Source: Lysobacter sp. (lineage in GTDB: Bacteria > Pseudomonadota > Gammaproteobacteria > Xanthomonadales > Xanthomonadaceae). From it: 64,000 nt of DNA. Below are positions 17,571 through 39,631 of the stretch, piece by piece. The number at the start of each line of letters is the position of its first letter. Position 1 is the stretch's first letter. A program made the translations under genes and the position numbers. Under the pieces are notes generated by a model. That model did not search any database and was not told the origin of the DNA. It saw only the letters and a program-made list of their open reading frames with translations. The DNA lies in NCBI GenBank assembly GCA_027306995.1, contig DAHUXS010000021.1:157178-221177 (forward strand), in the 5' to 3' direction.

Positions 17571-18587
17571 TCAGAAGGCGTGATCGAAACCGACTTCTCC
17601 CGTCACCCCGAGCTGGTAGGCGCTGACACGACGCTCGAAGAAGTTGGTCAGTTCCTGCACGTCCTGCAGCTCCATGAACGGCAGCGGATTGCGCACGTTG
17701 TAGCGCTTCTCCATGCCCAGCTTGGCGAAGTGGTTGTCGGCGCAGTGCTGCAGGTACTGGCGCATGTCGCGCTCGGAAATGCCGGCCACGCCGCCCGACA
17801 GCACGTCGGAAGCGAACTGCATCTCGCACTCGATCGCTTCTTCCAGCATGGCATGGACCTGCTGCTTCATCTCGTCGTCGAACAAGTCGGGCTCTTCCTC
17901 GCGCACGGTGCGCACCGCCTCGAAGGCGAATTCCATGTGGCAGGACTCGTCGCGGAACACCCAGTTGGTGCCCGAGGCCAGCCCCGGCAGCAGGCCGCGC
18001 GAGCGGAAGTGGTAGACGTAGGCGAACGCGGCGAAGAAGAACAGGCCTTCGATGCATGCAGCGAAGCAGATCTGGTTGAGCAGGAACTGGCGGCGCTGTT
18101 CGCGTGTTTCGATGCGATCGAGGCCCTGGATCGAGTCGATCCACTTGAAGCAGAACTCGGCCTTCTTGCGGATCGACGGGATGTTCTCGATCGCGGCGAA
18201 GGCGCGGGCACGCTCCAACGGGTCGGGCAGGTAGTTGTCGAGCAGGGTGAGGTAGAACTGCACGTGCAGCGCTTCCTCGTACAGCTGGCGCGACAGGTAC
18301 ATGCGCGCTTCCGGCGCGTTGAGATGCTTGTAGAGATTGAGCACCAGGTTGTTGGCGACGATCGAATCTCCGGTGGCGAAGAACGCCACCAGTCGGTGGA
18401 TGAGATGGCGATCGGCCGGCGACATCTTGGCGTGGAGGTCGGTGATGTCGATCTGGAAATCGATCTCCTCCACTGTCCAGGTGTTGCGCACGGCGTTGCG
18501 GTACATCTCGTAGAACTGCGGATAACGCATCGGCCGCAGGGTGAGTTCGAAGCCGGGGTCGAGCAGGCGGGTGACGATCGCGTTCAT
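17571..18587 (-). CDS. nrdB: Class Ia ribonucleoside-diphosphate reductase, beta subunit
   Basis: Product of 338 residues starting MNAIVTRLLDPGFELTL. Di-iron ligands are visible in FFATGDSIVANN, in YEEALHVQ (ExxH) and in the later pair IEGLFFFAAF and DESCHMEFAF. A tyrosine in HVQFYLTLL is placed for the stable radical. It generates the tyrosyl radical used by NrdA for making deoxyribonucleotides in aerobic growth. Start overlaps the nrdA stop (ATGA), so the two subunits are coupled. Regulation comes from the shared nrdA promoter, NrdR boxes and cobalamin riboswitch. Confidence 0.96.
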   Translation of the reverse strand: MNAIVTRLLDPGFELTLRPMRYPQFYEMYRNAVRNTWTVEEIDFQIDITDLHAKMSPADRHLIHRLVAFFATGDSIVANNLVLNLYKHLNAPEARMYLSRQLYEEALHVQFYLTLLDNYLPDPLERARAFAAIENIPSIRKKAEFCFKWIDSIQGLDRIETREQRRQFLLNQICFAACIEGLFFFAAFAYVYHFRSRGLLPGLASGTNWVFRDESCHMEFAFEAVRTVREEEPDLFDDEMKQQVHAMLEEAIECEMQFASDVLSGGVAGISERDMRQYLQHCADNHFAKLGMEKRYNVRNPLPFMELQDVQELTNFFERRVSAYQLGVTGEVGFDHAF

Positions 18588-20959
18588 TGGCAGGCTCCGC
18601 AGCTTTCCGGATTCTCGAGCGAGCAGGCGACCGCTTCGGCCGGCGTGTAGCTTCCCACCGTGGTCTTGGCGATGCGCGTCGCCGGGCGCGAGCGCAGGTA
18701 ATAGGTGGTCTTGATGCCGCGTCGCCATGCATGCATGTACATCGACGACAGCGCGCCGATGTTCGGGCTTTCCATGAACAGGTTGAGCGATGCCGACTGG
18801 TCGATGAAGGCGCCGCGATCGGCGGCCATGTCGATCAGGCTGCGCATCGGCAGTTCCCACGCGGTGCGATAGACCTGACGCAGCGTCTCCGGAATCGCGG
18901 GGATGCCCTGGATCGATCCTTCGGCCAGCTTGATGGTGTCGCGCATTTCCGGCGTCCACATCCCGAGCTTCTTCAACTCGTCGACCAGGTAGCGATTCAC
19001 CTGCAGGAAATCGCCGGACAGCGTCTCGCGCTTGAACAGGTTGCTGACCTGCGGTTCCACGCATTCGTAGCAGCCGGCGATCGAGGCGATGGTCGCGGTC
19101 GGCGCGATCGCGATCAACAGCGAATTGCGCAGGCCATGCTCGCGGATGCGGGCGCGCAGCGTGTCCCAGCGCTCCATCTGTTCCGGCTTCACGTCCCATG
19201 CGTCGAATTGCAGCTCGCCCAGCGATGCGCGGGTGTCGGCGAACGAGGCATGCGCACCCTTGGCCATCGCCAGCTCGCAGGAAGCGTCGAGCGCATGGAA
19301 ATAGATCGCCTCCGCGATCTCGCGCGACAGCGTGCGTGCTTCCTCGCTGTCGAAGGCCAGGCGCTTGCGGAAGAACACATCCTGCAGGCCCATGCAGCCG
19401 AGTCCGACCGGCCGCCAGCGCAGGTTGCCGCGACGCGCCGGTTCGATCGGATAGAAGTTGAGGTCGATCACGCGATCGAGCTGCGCCACCGCCTGGCGCA
19501 CGGTTTCGCCGAGTTTGGTGAAATCGAATTCGCCGTCTGCGTCGAAATGGCGGGCGAGGTTGATCGAGCCGAGGTTGCACACCGCGGTTTCCTCGGCGGA
19601 CGTCACTTCGAGAATCTCGGTGCACAGGTTGGACAGATGGATCACGTTGCGCTCGCGCAGCGTCTGGTTGCTGGCGCGGTTGCACTTGTCCTTGAAGGTC
19701 ACCCAGCCGTTTCCGGTCTCGGCCAGCGTGCGCATCATCCGTGCGTAGAGCTTGCGCGCCGGGATCGTCTTCGCGGCCTTGCCTTGGGCTTCCGCCTGCA
19801 GGTAAGCGGTGTTGAACGCATCGTTGTGCAGATCGACCAGCTCCGGCACCGTACCGGGATCGAACAGCGACCATTCCTGGTCGGTTTCGACGCGCTGCAT
19901 GAAGAGATCCGGCACCCAGTTCGCCAGGTTGAGGTTGTGGGTGCGGCGTGCCTCGTCGCCGGTGTTGTCGCGCAATTCGAGGAAGTCCTCGATATCGGCG
20001 TGCCAGGTTTCCAGGTAGACGCAGGCCGCGCCCTTGCGCTTGCCGCCCTGGTTCACCGCCATCACCGAGGAGTCCAGCGTCTTCAACCACGGCACGATGC
20101 CGTTGGAATGGCCATTGGTGGAGCGGATCAGCGCACCGCGTGCGCGCACGCGGCTGTAGCTCACGCCGATGCCGCCACTGAACTTCGACAGCTGGGCGAT
20201 CTCGCCGTAGCGGGCGTAGATCGATTCCAGCGTGTCCTGCGGCGAGTCGAGCAGGAAGCACGACGACAGCTGTTCGTGGCGCGTGCCGGAATTGAACAGG
20301 GTCGGCGAACTCGGGAGATATTCCAGTGCGCTCATCGTCGTGTACAGGGCGAGCGCTTCGGTCACGTCCTCGCTCAGCGCGCAGGCGATGCGCAGGAAGA
20401 ACTGTTGCGGCGTTTCGATCACCTTGCGGCTGTGCGGATGGCGCAGCAGATAGCGGTCATAGAGCGTGCGCAGCCCGAAATAATCGAAATGACGGTCCTG
20501 CGTCGGGTCGATGGCGTCGTTGAGCTTGCGGGCGTTGGCCTGCACGAAATCGAGCAGGCGATCGTTGATCAATCCGACTTCATGCCCGCGTGCCACCGAC
20601 TGCGAGAACGCGTGGATTTCCTGTCCCGCCACTTCCTTGGCGATCGCCCCGGCCAGCAGTCGCGCCGCCAGCTTGCCGTACTCGGGCTCTTCGCCGGTCA
20701 ACAGCGCTGCGGTGCGGATCGACAATTCGTCGAGCTCGCGCGTGGTCGCGCCGTCGTAGAGGCCGGAAATCGTGCGTGTCGCCACGCGCATCGGGTCGAT
20801 CGCGTACAGGCCTTCGCTGCAACGCTGGATCGCAAACACGATCTTGTTGAGATCGACCGATTGGCGTGCGCCATTGCGCTTGGTCACCATCATCGCCAGC
20901 GCGTTGTGCGGCGGCGTCAGTGCGAATTGCGGGTCGTGGGATTGCAGGGATGTGGACAT
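18584..20959 (-). CDS. nrdA: Class Ia ribonucleoside-diphosphate reductase, alpha subunit
   Basis: Product of 791 residues from ATG 20959 (MSTSLQSHDPQFAL); the longer track frame runs back into the leader. An N-terminal ATP-cone (MMVTKRNGARQSVDLNKIVFAIQR) senses ATP/dATP. Active-site cysteines are in LSSCFLLDSP, NLCTEI and AVCNLGSINL. The C-terminal redox pair is ESCGACQ. It reduces ribonucleoside diphosphates with electrons from thioredoxin or glutaredoxin. It is the first gene of nrdAB, with a leader of ~365 nt holding the riboswitch. A GAGA lies 7 bp before the chosen start. Confidence 0.96.
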   Translation of the reverse strand: MSTSLQSHDPQFALTPPHNALAMMVTKRNGARQSVDLNKIVFAIQRCSEGLYAIDPMRVATRTISGLYDGATTRELDELSIRTAALLTGEEPEYGKLAARLLAGAIAKEVAGQEIHAFSQSVARGHEVGLINDRLLDFVQANARKLNDAIDPTQDRHFDYFGLRTLYDRYLLRHPHSRKVIETPQQFFLRIACALSEDVTEALALYTTMSALEYLPSSPTLFNSGTRHEQLSSCFLLDSPQDTLESIYARYGEIAQLSKFSGGIGVSYSRVRARGALIRSTNGHSNGIVPWLKTLDSSVMAVNQGGKRKGAACVYLETWHADIEDFLELRDNTGDEARRTHNLNLANWVPDLFMQRVETDQEWSLFDPGTVPELVDLHNDAFNTAYLQAEAQGKAAKTIPARKLYARMMRTLAETGNGWVTFKDKCNRASNQTLRERNVIHLSNLCTEILEVTSAEETAVCNLGSINLARHFDADGEFDFTKLGETVRQAVAQLDRVIDLNFYPIEPARRGNLRWRPVGLGCMGLQDVFFRKRLAFDSEEARTLSREIAEAIYFHALDASCELAMAKGAHASFADTRASLGELQFDAWDVKPEQMERWDTLRARIREHGLRNSLLIAIAPTATIASIAGCYECVEPQVSNLFKRETLSGDFLQVNRYLVDELKKLGMWTPEMRDTIKLAEGSIQGIPAIPETLRQVYRTAWELPMRSLIDMAADRGAFIDQSASLNLFMESPNIGALSSMYMHAWRRGIKTTYYLRSRPATRIAKTTVGSYTPAEAVACSLENPESCGACQ

Positions 20960-21129
20960 GGCGTCGTCTCGCATGGACGCACGGATCGCATGGCTGTCCC
21001 GCGCAGCCAGGCGGCGAAAGGGATCGGCGGAATGTGGGCCACGGATACGACGGCGCCACCATTCGCGGCGACGCCCCCTCGGGCGGCGGATTGCTCCGCA
21101 TGCCGGCACCGCGCGTGCGTGCAAAGCGC

Positions 21130-21290
21130 GCGGCTGTCGGCAGGTCTTCGGACTTACGGGCGCGAAGGACGGAGCCTTCTCCTAACCGCCGCTTCCCGGA
21201 TCGCTCCAGTGCATGTGGCGGGTTCGTTCCCGATTACCGCTGCGGGGCAGTGCCGGAATTGGCCTCGCAAGGCCGCACCGACTTCCCTTT
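21130..21290 (-). promoter_or_regulatory. Cobalamin (B12) riboswitch upstream of nrdAB
   Basis: Read on the minus strand, the leader contains GGGAAGTCGGTG at the 5' side, then CACTGCCCCGCAGCGGTAAT, CCCGCCACATGCACTGG, CGGGAAGCGGCGG, and the B12-box AGTCCGAAGACCTGCC near the 3' side. These are the ordered conserved blocks of the AdoCbl riboswitch. It lies ~35 nt after the predicted transcription start and ~170 nt before nrdA. The usual logic is OFF when cobalamin binds. I see no T-run after it, so control may be translational or Rho-dependent. Confidence 0.93.
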
Positions 21291-21326
21291 TCATCCGGCG
21301 ATCGAACCCACCGCCGGAACCGACGA

Positions 21327-21342
21327 CCACAACATATTGGGT
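21327..21342. promoter_or_regulatory. NrdR-like box, promoter-proximal (nrdAB)
   Basis: CCACAACATATTGGGT matches the NrdR consensus, as I recall it (acaCwAtATaTwGtgt), at all six strongly conserved positions. It covers the -10 hexamer of the nrdAB promoter. Confidence 0.65.
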
Positions 21343-21359
21343 CGCCCGGACTCTGTCAA
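21331..21359 (-). promoter_or_regulatory. nrdAB promoter (sigma-70 type)
   Basis: Minus-strand TTGACA, a 17-bp spacer and TATGTT form a near-consensus promoter (6/6 and 4/6). Initiation would fall near 21324, just before the riboswitch. The -10 lies inside one NrdR-like box and the -35 touches the second, so repressor binding would block polymerase. Confidence 0.75.
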
Positions 21360-21374
21360 CACGAATTATGGTGT
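21359..21374. promoter_or_regulatory. NrdR-like box, promoter-distal (nrdAB)
   Basis: ACACGAATTATGGTGT matches the recalled NrdR consensus at five of six strongly conserved positions and has perfect ACAC/GTGT flanks. Its centre is 32 bp, three helical turns, from the proximal box. That is the usual spacing of paired NrdR boxes. It touches the first base of the neighbouring dsbA-like stop codon. Confidence 0.65.
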
Positions 21375-36567: not shown

Positions 36568-37341
36568 TCAACCGCACTTGCTGTATCCGCAGTTCAGGCA
36601 AGTCGCGCAGCCATCCATGATCACCACCGATTTGTTGTTGCACTTGTGGCACATGGTGGCGCTGGGCGGGAAGCTGGTGCCTTCGCCGGTGACGGCGATG
36701 TCTTCCTCGATCACGACGACTGGGTGGGCATCAGCGTTTTTTTTTGAGCCCTGCTCGTAGGCGCGACGCTTTTCGGCGATCAGCGCGCGCTGGTGCTCGT
36801 CCATGTCCGGGTCGTGCATCATGCCGATGGTCTTGAGGTGGTCTTCAACAATACTGCCGAGTTCGGCCACCAGCGACGGCATGTAGACGCCGCCGGCCTT
36901 GTAGTAACCACCCTTGGGATCGAACACCGCCTTCATCTCGTCGACCAGGAAGGTGACGTCGCCACCCTTGCGGAACACCGCCGACATGATGCGGGTCAGC
37001 GCGACGATCCACTGGAAGTGTTCCATCGACTTCGAGTTGATGAAGACTTCGAACGGACGACGCAGTTCGTGTTCGGTGCCGGCATTGAGCACGATGTCAT
37101 TGATGGTCACGTACATCGCGTGTTCCACCAGCGGCGATTTGATCTTGTAGGTGCTGCCGATCAGGATTTCCGGACGCTCGATCTTCTCGTGCATCTGGAT
37201 CACGTCGGCCATCGGCAATTCCGCTTCGGCCTTCTCGCGGCTGATGCTGCCGCCGGACTGCGCGGGTGCGGCATCGCGTGCCTTGTCTTCCGGCGTGACG
37301 ACGTTGTAGCCCTTGATTTTCTGGTCGATCTTGACAGCCAT
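36568..37341 (-). CDS. nrdJb: B12-dependent ribonucleotide reductase, C-terminal subunit NrdJb
   Basis: Product of 257 residues, homologous to the C-terminal part of long class II reductases, here a separate polypeptide as in Pseudomonas aeruginosa. The central region (YVTINDIVLNAGTEHELRRPFEVF, WIVALTRIMSAVFRKGGDV) and the Cys-rich tail (MCHKCNNKSVVIMDG, CATCLNCGYSKCG) are diagnostic. The tail probably binds zinc and delivers electrons to the active site. Starts 3 bp after nrdJa. An A9 run inside encodes GSKKNADA and is a slippage-prone site just before the tail. Confidence 0.93.
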   Translation of the reverse strand: MAVKIDQKIKGYNVVTPEDKARDAAPAQSGGSISREKAEAELPMADVIQMHEKIERPEILIGSTYKIKSPLVEHAMYVTINDIVLNAGTEHELRRPFEVFINSKSMEHFQWIVALTRIMSAVFRKGGDVTFLVDEMKAVFDPKGGYYKAGGVYMPSLVAELGSIVEDHLKTIGMMHDPDMDEHQRALIAEKRRAYEQGSKKNADAHPVVVIEEDIAVTGEGTSFPPSATMCHKCNNKSVVIMDGCATCLNCGYSKCG

Positions 37342-37344
37342 GAT

Positions 37345-39501
37345 TCAGAACTTCCCGTAGTAGCCTTCTTTCAGTGCATCGAACAGGTTGGCGGCGGTGT
37401 GGGTTTCGCCGTCGTATTCGATTTCCTCGTTGCCCTTCACCTCGATCATGCTGCCGTCTTCCAGTTCGAAGCGGTAGGTGGTGTTCTCGAGGTCCTTCTC
37501 CTTCACCAGCACGCCCTGGAAGGCGGCCGGGTTGAAGCGGAAGGTGGTGCAGCCCTTCAGCCCTTGCTGGTAGGCGTAGCGGTAGATGTCCTTGAAGTCC
37601 TCGTACGGGTAATCCGTCGGGACGTTCGCGGTCTTGGAGATCGAGCTGTCCACCCACTTCTGCGCGGCGGCCTGCACGTCGACGTGTTCCTTCGGCGTGA
37701 TGTCGTCGGCGGCGATGAAGTAGTCCGGCAGCGCGGCCTTGGGGTCATCGGAGAACGGCATCGCGTCGGCGTTGATGCGTTCGCGGTAGGCCAGCAGTTC
37801 GAAGGAATAGACGTCGACCTTTTCCTTCGACTTCTTGCCTTCGCGGATCACGTTGCGGCTGTAGTGGTGGGCGAACGACGGTTCGATGCCGTTGCTGGCG
37901 TTGTTGGCCAGCGACAGGCTGATGGTGCCGGTCGGTGCGATCGAGCTGTGGTGGGTGAAGCGCGCGCCGACGTCGGCGAGTTCGTCGACGAGTTCCGGCG
38001 CGACTTCGGCGATGCGCTGCATGTAGCGCGAGTAACGCGCGTGCAGCACCTTGCCTTCGATTTCCTGGCCGATGCGCCAGCCGTCCTTCGCCATCTCCGG
38101 ACGCTTGCGCAGCATCTCGGCGGTGACTTCGAAGCGCTCGTCCATGATCGGCGCCGGACCTTTTTCCTTCGCCAGGTCCACCGCGACTTCCCAGCCGGCG
38201 ATCGCCATTTCGCGGGCGATGCGTTCGGTGAATTCGCACGACTCCTTCGAGCCGTACTTCATCTTGAGCATGGTCACGGTACTGCCCAGGCCGAGGAAGC
38301 CCATGCCGTGGCGGCGCTTGCGCATGATCTCGTCGCGCTGCTTCTGCAAGGGCAGGCCGTTCACTTCCACCACGTTGTCGAGCATGCGGGTGAAGACGCG
38401 CACCACTTCCTTGTATTCGGCCCAGTCGAAGCTGGCTTCGTCGGTGAAGGGCTGGCGCACGAACTTGGTCAGGTTGACCGAGCCGAGCAGGCAGGCGCCG
38501 TAGGCCGGCAGCGGCTGTTCGCCGCAGGGATTGGTCGCGCGGATGTTCTCGCACCACCAGTTGTTGTTCATCTCGTTGACCTTGTCGATCAGGATGAAGC
38601 CCGGCTCGGCATAGTCATAGGTGGACGCCATGATCATGTCCCACAGATGGCGGGCACGGACCTGGCCGTAGACGCGGCAGGCGACCAGGCCATCGTCGCG
38701 GGTGACGTAGCCTTCGTGGTTCGGCCAGTCGCGCCACACCACCTGGTTGGGGTCCTCGACGTTCACTTCGCCGAGCTCCTTGTGCGACAGCGGAAACACC
38801 AGCGGCCACTGGCCGTCGGCTTCCACCGCCTGCATGAAGCCGTCGGTGATCAGCAGCGAGAGATTGAACTGGCGCAGGCGACCGTCTTCGCGCTTGGCGC
38901 GGATGAAGTCGCGGGCGTCGGGGTGGCTAACGTCGAAGGTGCCCATCTGCGCACCGCGGCGACCGCCGGCCGAGGACACGGTGAAGCACATCTTGTCGTA
39001 GATATCCATGAAGGACATCGGGCCCGAGGTGTAGGCGCCGGCGCCGGCGACGAAGGCGCCCTTGGGACGCAGCGTCGAGAATTCGTAGCCGATGCCGCAA
39101 CCGGCCTTCAGCGTCAGGCCGGCCTCGTGCACGCGCTCGAGGATGCCGTCCATCGAATCCGGGATGGTGCCGGAGACGGTGCAGTTGATGGTGCTGGTGG
39201 CGGGCTTGTGGGCCTGCGCGCCGGCATTGGACGTGATGCGGCCGGCCGGGATCGCGCCGCGACGCAGCGCCCACAGGAAACGGTCGGTCCAGAACGGACG
39301 CTGCTCGGCGTTCGGCTCGGCTTCCGCCAAGGCCTTGGCCACGCGCAGATAGGTGGCGTCGATGTCGGTATCGATCGCTTCGCCCTGCTTGGTCTTCAAC
39401 CGGTACTTCTTGTCCCAGATGTCGAGCGATGCCGGCTGCATCGGGATATCCCCTTCGGGGGCGGCGATGCGAACGGCTTCCAGGCGGGGCGCGGTGCTCA
39501 T
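37345..39501 (-). CDS. nrdJa: Adenosylcobalamin-dependent ribonucleotide reductase, catalytic subunit NrdJa
   Basis: Product of 718 residues. Class II hallmarks include AGCGIGYEFSTLRPKGAFV, the SAGGRRGAQMGTFDVSHPD segment and the catalytic Cys in NPCGEQPLPAYGACLLGSVNL, plus SSIAPTGTISLSLANNAS. It makes deoxyribonucleotides using AdoCbl to form the thiyl radical and needs no oxygen, complementing the oxygen-dependent NrdAB. First gene of nrdJa-nrdJb. The promoter and paired NrdR-like boxes lie upstream, but no cobalamin riboswitch was seen in its leader. Confidence 0.95.
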   Translation of the reverse strand: MSTAPRLEAVRIAAPEGDIPMQPASLDIWDKKYRLKTKQGEAIDTDIDATYLRVAKALAEAEPNAEQRPFWTDRFLWALRRGAIPAGRITSNAGAQAHKPATSTINCTVSGTIPDSMDGILERVHEAGLTLKAGCGIGYEFSTLRPKGAFVAGAGAYTSGPMSFMDIYDKMCFTVSSAGGRRGAQMGTFDVSHPDARDFIRAKREDGRLRQFNLSLLITDGFMQAVEADGQWPLVFPLSHKELGEVNVEDPNQVVWRDWPNHEGYVTRDDGLVACRVYGQVRARHLWDMIMASTYDYAEPGFILIDKVNEMNNNWWCENIRATNPCGEQPLPAYGACLLGSVNLTKFVRQPFTDEASFDWAEYKEVVRVFTRMLDNVVEVNGLPLQKQRDEIMRKRRHGMGFLGLGSTVTMLKMKYGSKESCEFTERIAREMAIAGWEVAVDLAKEKGPAPIMDERFEVTAEMLRKRPEMAKDGWRIGQEIEGKVLHARYSRYMQRIAEVAPELVDELADVGARFTHHSSIAPTGTISLSLANNASNGIEPSFAHHYSRNVIREGKKSKEKVDVYSFELLAYRERINADAMPFSDDPKAALPDYFIAADDITPKEHVDVQAAAQKWVDSSISKTANVPTDYPYEDFKDIYRYAYQQGLKGCTTFRFNPAAFQGVLVKEKDLENTTYRFELEDGSMIEVKGNEEIEYDGETHTAANLFDALKEGYYGKF

Positions 39502-39566
39502 GCGGCGTGTGTCTCCTCAAGTCCAGTATGGACCCGACAGCGCCAGGCGTGGCGGCCGCGAGTCCT

Positions 39567-39578
39567 CTATATATATAG
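39567..39578. repeat. AT palindrome in the nrdJa leader
   Basis: CTATATATATAG is a perfect 12-bp palindrome in GC-rich DNA, ~65 bp upstream of nrdJa. Its half-sites resemble an NrdR core but are two bases too far apart. A further regulator site or a second -10 is possible. Confidence 0.35.
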
Positions 39579-39584
39579 ATGAGA

Positions 39585-39600
39585 ACCCCAGATTTGGGTC
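39585..39600. promoter_or_regulatory. NrdR-like box, degenerate (nrdJ)
   Basis: ACCCCAGATTTGGGTC keeps all six strongly conserved positions of the recalled NrdR consensus but not its flanks. Its centre is 31 bp from the stronger box at 39616, matching paired-box spacing. Confidence 0.45.
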
Positions 39601-39615
39601 TTCCATCTCCCCCGA

Positions 39616-39631
39616 CCACAAGATGTTGTGG
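39616..39631. promoter_or_regulatory. NrdR-like box (nrdJ)
   Basis: CCACAAGATGTTGTGG is a near-perfect palindrome and matches the recalled NrdR consensus at all six strongly conserved positions. It lies just downstream of the predicted nrdJ transcription start, a repressing position. Confidence 0.65.

Follow-up and report, generated by a model that had tools for sequence, protein, structure and literature searches.

Predicted NrdR boxes and a cobalamin riboswitch in succession on the nrdAB operon of a Lysobacter species

The class I RNR operon nrdAB of this Lysobacter sp. is very likely controlled by two regulators in succession, the repressor NrdR acting at the DNA and a B12 (cobalamin) riboswitch acting at the RNA. 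The operon lies in the window, by which we mean the whole 64-kb stretch of DNA that was analysed. An initial annotation had pointed to two NrdR-like boxes exactly 32 bp apart over the nrdAB promoter, one on the -10 and the other touching a perfect TTGACA, and had read them as the known architecture of NrdR repression, which would place nucleotide sensing and B12 sensing in series on one transcript. Here we describe the box pair and its conservation, the riboswitch in the nrdA leader and the relation of both to nrdJ, the gene of a B12-dependent class II RNR.

Results and Discussion

Two predicted NrdR boxes overlap the nrdAB promoter

The elements of the nrdAB locus are as follows.

21359..21374, minus strand: predicted NrdR box A, ACACCATAATTCGTGT, the upstream box, touching the -35
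21327..21342, minus strand: predicted NrdR box B, ACCCAATATGTTGTGG, covering the -10
21331..21359, minus strand: sigma-70-type nrdAB promoter, TTGACA-17-TATGTT, 10/12 matches, predicted +1 near 21324
21122..21339, minus strand: cobalamin riboswitch aptamer, RF00174, 116.3 bits (gathering 31.5, E 1.5e-30)
20960..21121, minus strand: rest of the nrdA leader, ~160 bases, with conserved hairpins; probable expression platform
18584..20959, minus strand: nrdA, class I RNR catalytic subunit with N-terminal ATP-cone (TIGR02506, 728 bits; PF03477)
17571..18593, minus strand: nrdB, class I RNR small subunit (PF00268, 267 bits; stretch tested, start approximate)

Read 5' to 3' on the minus strand, the promoter has the order ACACCATAATTCGTGT-TGACAGAGTCCGGGCG-ACCCAATATGTTGTGG, i.e. 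box A, 16 bp and box B, which gives a gap of 16 bp and a centre to centre distance of 32 bp. Compared with the NrdR consensus ACACWATATATWGTGT, box A has 12/16 matches and box B 13/16, and both keep C4 and G13. The -35 hexamer TTGACA (21359-21354) has one base in common with box A, and the -10 hexamer TATGTT (21336-21331), separated from TTGACA by a spacer of 17 bp, falls within box B. The sequence, coordinates and offset of the boxes, as well as their contacts with the two hexamers, are exactly as first described. A scan of 600 bp gave no other sigma-70-like site (shuffle mean 0.1), and the promoter directly follows the stop codon of a DsbA-like gene upstream. Judged by the distance from the -10, transcription would start at about 21324, 7 bases past the hexamer. 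The region combines what characterizes an NrdR operator, with tandem palindromes carrying C4-G13, a permitted gap, an RNR operon downstream and an overlapped RNA polymerase site.

The pair matches the published consensus at 25 of 32 positions. For comparison, the best pair (30-33 bp offset) reached 21 when the whole window was dinucleotide-shuffled 300 times, and no more than 22 when the local 415 bp were shuffled 20,000 times. A matrix scan had been named beforehand as a test, and with an NrdR matrix built solely from boxes of other families the score was far above background: among all sites in the window box B ranked first, the nrdJ box (see below) second and box A third, and among pairs the nrdAB pair ranked first and the nrdJ pair second. 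In a pattern search of the genome (2.83 Mb), ≤3 mismatches to the NrdR consensus were found at two places only, one of them being box B. The other, TCACTATATATCCTGT (G000:C10:198061-198076, L122), is without G13 and is probably a chance match.

The genome encodes a complete NrdR

One NrdR is encoded in the genome (TIGR00244, 189 bits), beside ribD and on a contig other than that of the window. By alignment to the solved NrdR chains (173 bits) it has the Cys4 Zn ribbon, D15, R17, R26-R29 (RRRR) and the ATP-cone, where D15, R17 and R26-R29 correspond to the DNA-contacting residues in the Streptomyces coelicolor NrdR structure (PMC9110341). With dATP and ATP, NrdR forms a tetramer whose two DNA sites suit boxes about three turns apart, and the DNA is bent at each box (PMC9110341). 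Binding is tight at 14-17 bp between the boxes, and the permitted gaps of 14-17 (or 24-27) bp place both boxes on one helix face (PMC12051234). The 16-bp gap found here fits this published geometry and, together with the conservation of the pair and the complete NrdR, supports the architecture proposed initially. Both the nucleotide logic and the geometry are taken from work on other species, and by analogy the local NrdR would follow them. With regard to NrdR autoregulation, no box pair above background was found upstream of nrdR.

The box pair is conserved in relatives

We compared the nrdAB promoters of 80 relatives, fetched by NrdA, with that of the window (81 in total). In 75/81 promoters we found a pair whose two boxes both keep C4 and G13, and 66 had TTGA at the edge of box A. 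The offset was exactly 32 bp in about 70/81, a count that is approximate because a few pair assignments are shifted in register (Thermomonas and similar loci). In 29 non-redundant promoters, conservation was 1.17 bits/column in box A, 1.62 in box B and 1.78 in the remainder of the -35, as compared to 0.30 in the free spacer and 0.21 in the 5' flank. With boxes and spacing conserved and the spacer sequence variable, the pair is therefore under selection as a unit, including its spacing. Among 16 riboswitch-bearing promoters from other genera and families, most have an NrdR pair at 31-33 bp and TTGAC, followed by the aptamer, with weaker cases in family f9. Some variation is seen closer to the window: the distal half of box A looks diverged in a species of the same genus (L138), and sister lineages have atypical pairs, at 29 bp in L005 and L009 and at 31-32 bp with an altered box B in the NML group. 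The nrdA sequences closest to that of the window come from the MAGs SZAS-110 and SH_66_9 (Lysobacteraceae/Xanthomonadaceae group).

A cobalamin riboswitch begins at about the predicted transcription start

The RF00174 match at 21339-21122 covers the full length of the model (1-189) and has all core motifs. Model positions 1-12 fall in box B and the -10, and the pairing-capable 5' strand of P1 begins near 21324, the expected +1. As the P1 start coincides with the +1 placed by promoter spacing, aptamer and transcript seem to have a common start, and because the riboswitch begins at about the predicted +1, the suggestion of nucleotide and B12 sensing in series on one transcript gains support. This reading is strengthened by the presence of the B12-dependent nrdJ in the window and by the finding that, across the order, class I operons have the riboswitch only in genomes with nrdJ (see below). 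RF00174 is expected at B12-related genes or B12-independent isozymes; here it precedes the class I operon nrdAB, and the class II gene nrdJ lies within the same 64 kb.

The leader between the aptamer and nrdA contains hairpins (GCCGCGCG..CGCGCGG; GCCC-GAGG-GGGC; TGGCTG-CGCGGGA-CAGCCA) with compensatory stem changes in relatives. Hairpins with a G-rich loop (C-G-N-GGG) occur in 42/45 riboswitch-bearing leaders vs 12/36 riboswitch-less ones, often two per leader. No intrinsic terminator was found behind the aptamer in the nrdA leader, and RNAalifold returned hairpins, yet no convincing alternative fold joining the aptamer to the start codon. It is tempting to go further and regard promoter, operator and aptamer as fused, since box B, the -10 and the P1 start are contiguous. 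A transcript beginning at the first P1 base would then couple NrdR clearance to aptamer folding, and repeated CGNGGG-loop hairpins would constitute a so far undescribed off-device in the leader. We hold this extended version to be speculative and rather unlikely.

Elsewhere in the order, two divergent cobalamin riboswitches were seen back to back within a few hundred bases in two genomes (G105:C1:333028-333721 and G054:C17:62350-62902), one of those in G105 being on nrdAB.

With regard to B12 supply, a family search of the genome gave no CobN, CbiC or CobA/BtuR match. A PduO-type adenosyltransferase is encoded, and a second cobalamin riboswitch precedes a gene for a BtuB-like receptor. This gene content suggests that B12 is probably imported (scavenged) and then adenosylated, in which case the riboswitch would report B12 in the surroundings.

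Predicted NrdR boxes at the nrdJ promoter

The class II RNR, which is absent from the initial annotation, is encoded in the same window, 16 kb from nrdAB.

37345..39501, minus strand: nrdJ, adenosylcobalamin-dependent class II RNR (TIGR02504, 580 bits, cut-off 400)
36568..37341, minus strand: second polypeptide of the split class II RNR, TSCPD domain (PF12637; C-terminal part of PRK08665), directly after nrdJ
39616..39631, minus strand: predicted NrdR box of the nrdJ promoter, CCACAACATCTTGTGG, second best site in 64 kb
39585..39600, minus strand: second, weak nrdJ NrdR box, GACCCAAATCTGGGGT, 31 bp downstream, 8/16 matches; rank 15 alone, as a pair second best in 64 kb

A strong box was found at the corresponding place in 27/27 nrdJ promoters of relatives, and most of these promoters have a weaker second box 31-34 bp away. 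As nrdJ has a box pair of its own that recurs in relatives, NrdR very probably covers both RNRs, while the riboswitch is on the B12-independent one only. The split nrdJ unit (36568-39631) adjoins a divergent gene for a DegP/Q-like protease.

The riboswitch depends on nrdJ across the order

A riboswitch that hands over to NrdJ should not outlast the loss of nrdJ, and this prediction was tested in two samples. In 51 relatives we found riboswitch and nrdJ together in 29 and neither in 19, where the 29 include one nrdJ cut by a contig end (L010) and one with its frame broken by N or a shift (L068). Two relatives had a riboswitch without an intact nrdJ, an incomplete MAG (L004) and Stenotrophomonas mori (L032), and one had nrdJ without a riboswitch (L033). 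In an order-wide sample of 91 genomes drawn evenly, riboswitch-bearing class I RNR operons coexisted with nrdJ in 30/30 genomes, representing 22 genera and 7 families; for class I operons without a riboswitch the figure was 10/22 (Fisher p 3e-6, with kinship ignored). The converse does not hold: family f8 and one further genome (G131) have nrdJ without a riboswitch, and a strict equivalence between riboswitch and nrdJ was rejected on these grounds. Since family f8 keeps both nrdAB and nrdJ, the rule is one-way.

Several genomes appear to be caught in the process of decay. In S. mori (nrdA in L032, nrdJ in L119) the aptamer core is missing 8 nt (ACCAAGCA) and nrdJ has a large internal deletion; barring an error in the assembly, the two sides of the B12 logic seem to be decaying in parallel here. 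L005 has no nrdJ and an aptamer so degenerate that Rfam no longer recognises it, and leaders of the S. rhizophila type retain the 3' end of the aptamer alone. Read from the sequences, these intermediates point to loss of the riboswitch, not gain. The NrdR pair stays in most lineages where the riboswitch has decayed or been lost, including the whole S. maltophilia group. The outgroup Rhodanobacter has the riboswitch, and the best tree requires 5 riboswitch changes, 3 of them on strongly supported branches. A kinship-corrected sign test on the tree was non-significant (p 0.25), because these three make too few independent changes. The case draws its strength from the near-absence of counter-examples together with the decayed intermediates.

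Long nrdJ frames of 1,093-1,394 aa, interrupted at about model position 282, were found in L121, L115, G125, G072, G140, G099, G134 and G131 and probably contain an intein. In the family of the window, the sole two nrdJ found without a riboswitch (L033, G131) are of this intein-like type, which suggests later re-acquisition.

Three other observations were made in these genomes. In the S. maltophilia group, which has lost nrdJ and the riboswitch, SJTL3 (L120) and other genomes have an additional class I RNR operon, with an alpha of ~850 aa and a beta of 346 aa. In four genomes of families f7 and f9 (G057, G082, G099, G129), all of which have nrdJ as well, a short class I-type alpha (~630-670 aa) is preceded by a cobalamin riboswitch, located 260-320 bases ahead of the model match. 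The entry titled Bacillus subtilis SK7B5 (L020) contains a Stenotrophomonas nrdAB locus, i.e. the assembly is mislabelled or contaminated.

A model for control at two levels

We propose the following sequence of events. At high dATP, NrdR loaded with dATP and ATP would bind as a tetramer to both boxes, three helical turns apart, and because box A is at the edge of the -35 and box B on the -10, the bent complex would block RNA polymerase. The nrdJ promoter, 18 kb away, would be covered by the same NrdR, and by acting at both promoters NrdR would thereby set the total RNR supply. A transcript that escapes would begin at about the first base of the aptamer P1 stem. Binding of adenosylcobalamin would then turn the leader off, via sequestration or Rho-type termination, nrdAB expression would drop and the B12-dependent NrdJ take over. 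NrdR would thus determine how much RNR is made and the riboswitch which RNR.

Since both boxes meet a promoter hexamer (box A at the edge of the -35, box B around the -10), the palindromes could be mere by-products of a strong sigma-70 promoter to which no repressor is bound. This is highly improbable, as conservation runs through both palindromes past the hexamers (box A 1.17 bits/column vs 0.21 in the upstream flank), the spacing is that of NrdR, and the same box recurs at the nrdJ promoter, where it lies downstream of the -35/-10. Several factors bind nrdAB promoters elsewhere, and the pair might serve another dimeric regulator or an architectural protein, e.g. of DnaA or AlgR type. The C4/G13 positions and the 16-bp gap are hallmarks of NrdR, however, the top sites of an NrdR-type matrix in the window are at the two nrd promoters and a conserved NrdR is encoded in the genome, so we give this very little credence.

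It can also be argued that the NrdR sites are real and the riboswitch vestigial, with nucleotide sensing alone in operation, considering that decayed riboswitches do occur in several relatives. That decay is found where nrdJ is missing or broken, whereas the aptamer of the window scores 116 bits with all core motifs and shares its genome with an intact nrdJ and an adenosyltransferase, which makes a vestigial riboswitch very unlikely. Taken together, the evidence favours NrdR at the DNA and the B12 riboswitch at the RNA as successive regulators of nrdAB.

Relation to known systems

NrdR and a B12 riboswitch on nrdAB are already known in combination from Streptomyces and Propionibacterium, and the locus described here is a new, well supported instance. 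The passages on S. coelicolor nrdABS and nrdRJ in PMC9110341 and in PMC4991794 (citing Borovok 2006) describe NrdR boxes together with a B12 riboswitch on nrdAB. In both systems the promoters of nrdAB and of the class II RNR carry NrdR boxes, the nrdAB leader holds an adenosylcobalamin riboswitch and nrdJ is the B12-dependent partner. S. coelicolor belongs to another phylum, and its nrdR is co-transcribed with nrdJ, whereas here nrdR is beside ribD on another contig, nrdJ is near nrdAB and the aptamer appears to begin at the promoter +1. The nrdAB operon of Propionibacterium (Cutibacterium) acnes has an NrdR-type box over a mapped promoter and a cobalamin riboswitch in the leader, with premature termination observed (PMC3848588), but a single box is reported there as opposed to the complete pair found here. 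In Pseudomonas aeruginosa, a gammaproteobacterium as well, the nrdA, nrdJ and nrdD promoters have two NrdR boxes each, one of them over the -10, as supported by data from box mutations and an nrdR mutant (PMC4409342). Paired boxes and nrdJ under NrdR are thus shared with the present case, although the P. aeruginosa nrdA leader is not described with a B12 riboswitch in that paper (PMC4409342). The arrangement also resembles RF00174 on other B12-independent isozymes, e.g. metE, where B12 shuts off the isozyme if a B12-dependent counterpart exists; unlike those cases, the riboswitch is here joined with a nucleotide-sensing repressor at the same promoter.

A literature search, with curated regulon databases outside its reach, gave no description of the combination of NrdR boxes and a B12 riboswitch in this bacterial order. 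What is new here, as judged by comparison of the loci, is that both parts are found together and conserved across an order of proteobacteria, in an unusually compact layout and with a clear evolutionary test.

The locus lends itself to a clean comparison of how an essential enzyme is controlled in two layers at one promoter, by a protein that senses the product pool and an RNA that gauges the cofactor of the rival enzyme, and the order concerned counts plant and human pathogens among its members (Xanthomonas, Stenotrophomonas). The layers separate in evolution, as the riboswitch decays when nrdJ is lost and the NrdR pair is kept, and the division of labour in which NrdR would set the amount of RNR and B12 the choice of enzyme can therefore be tested in pairs of related species. 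The same logic predicts in which species B12 would shut down the production of class I RNR.
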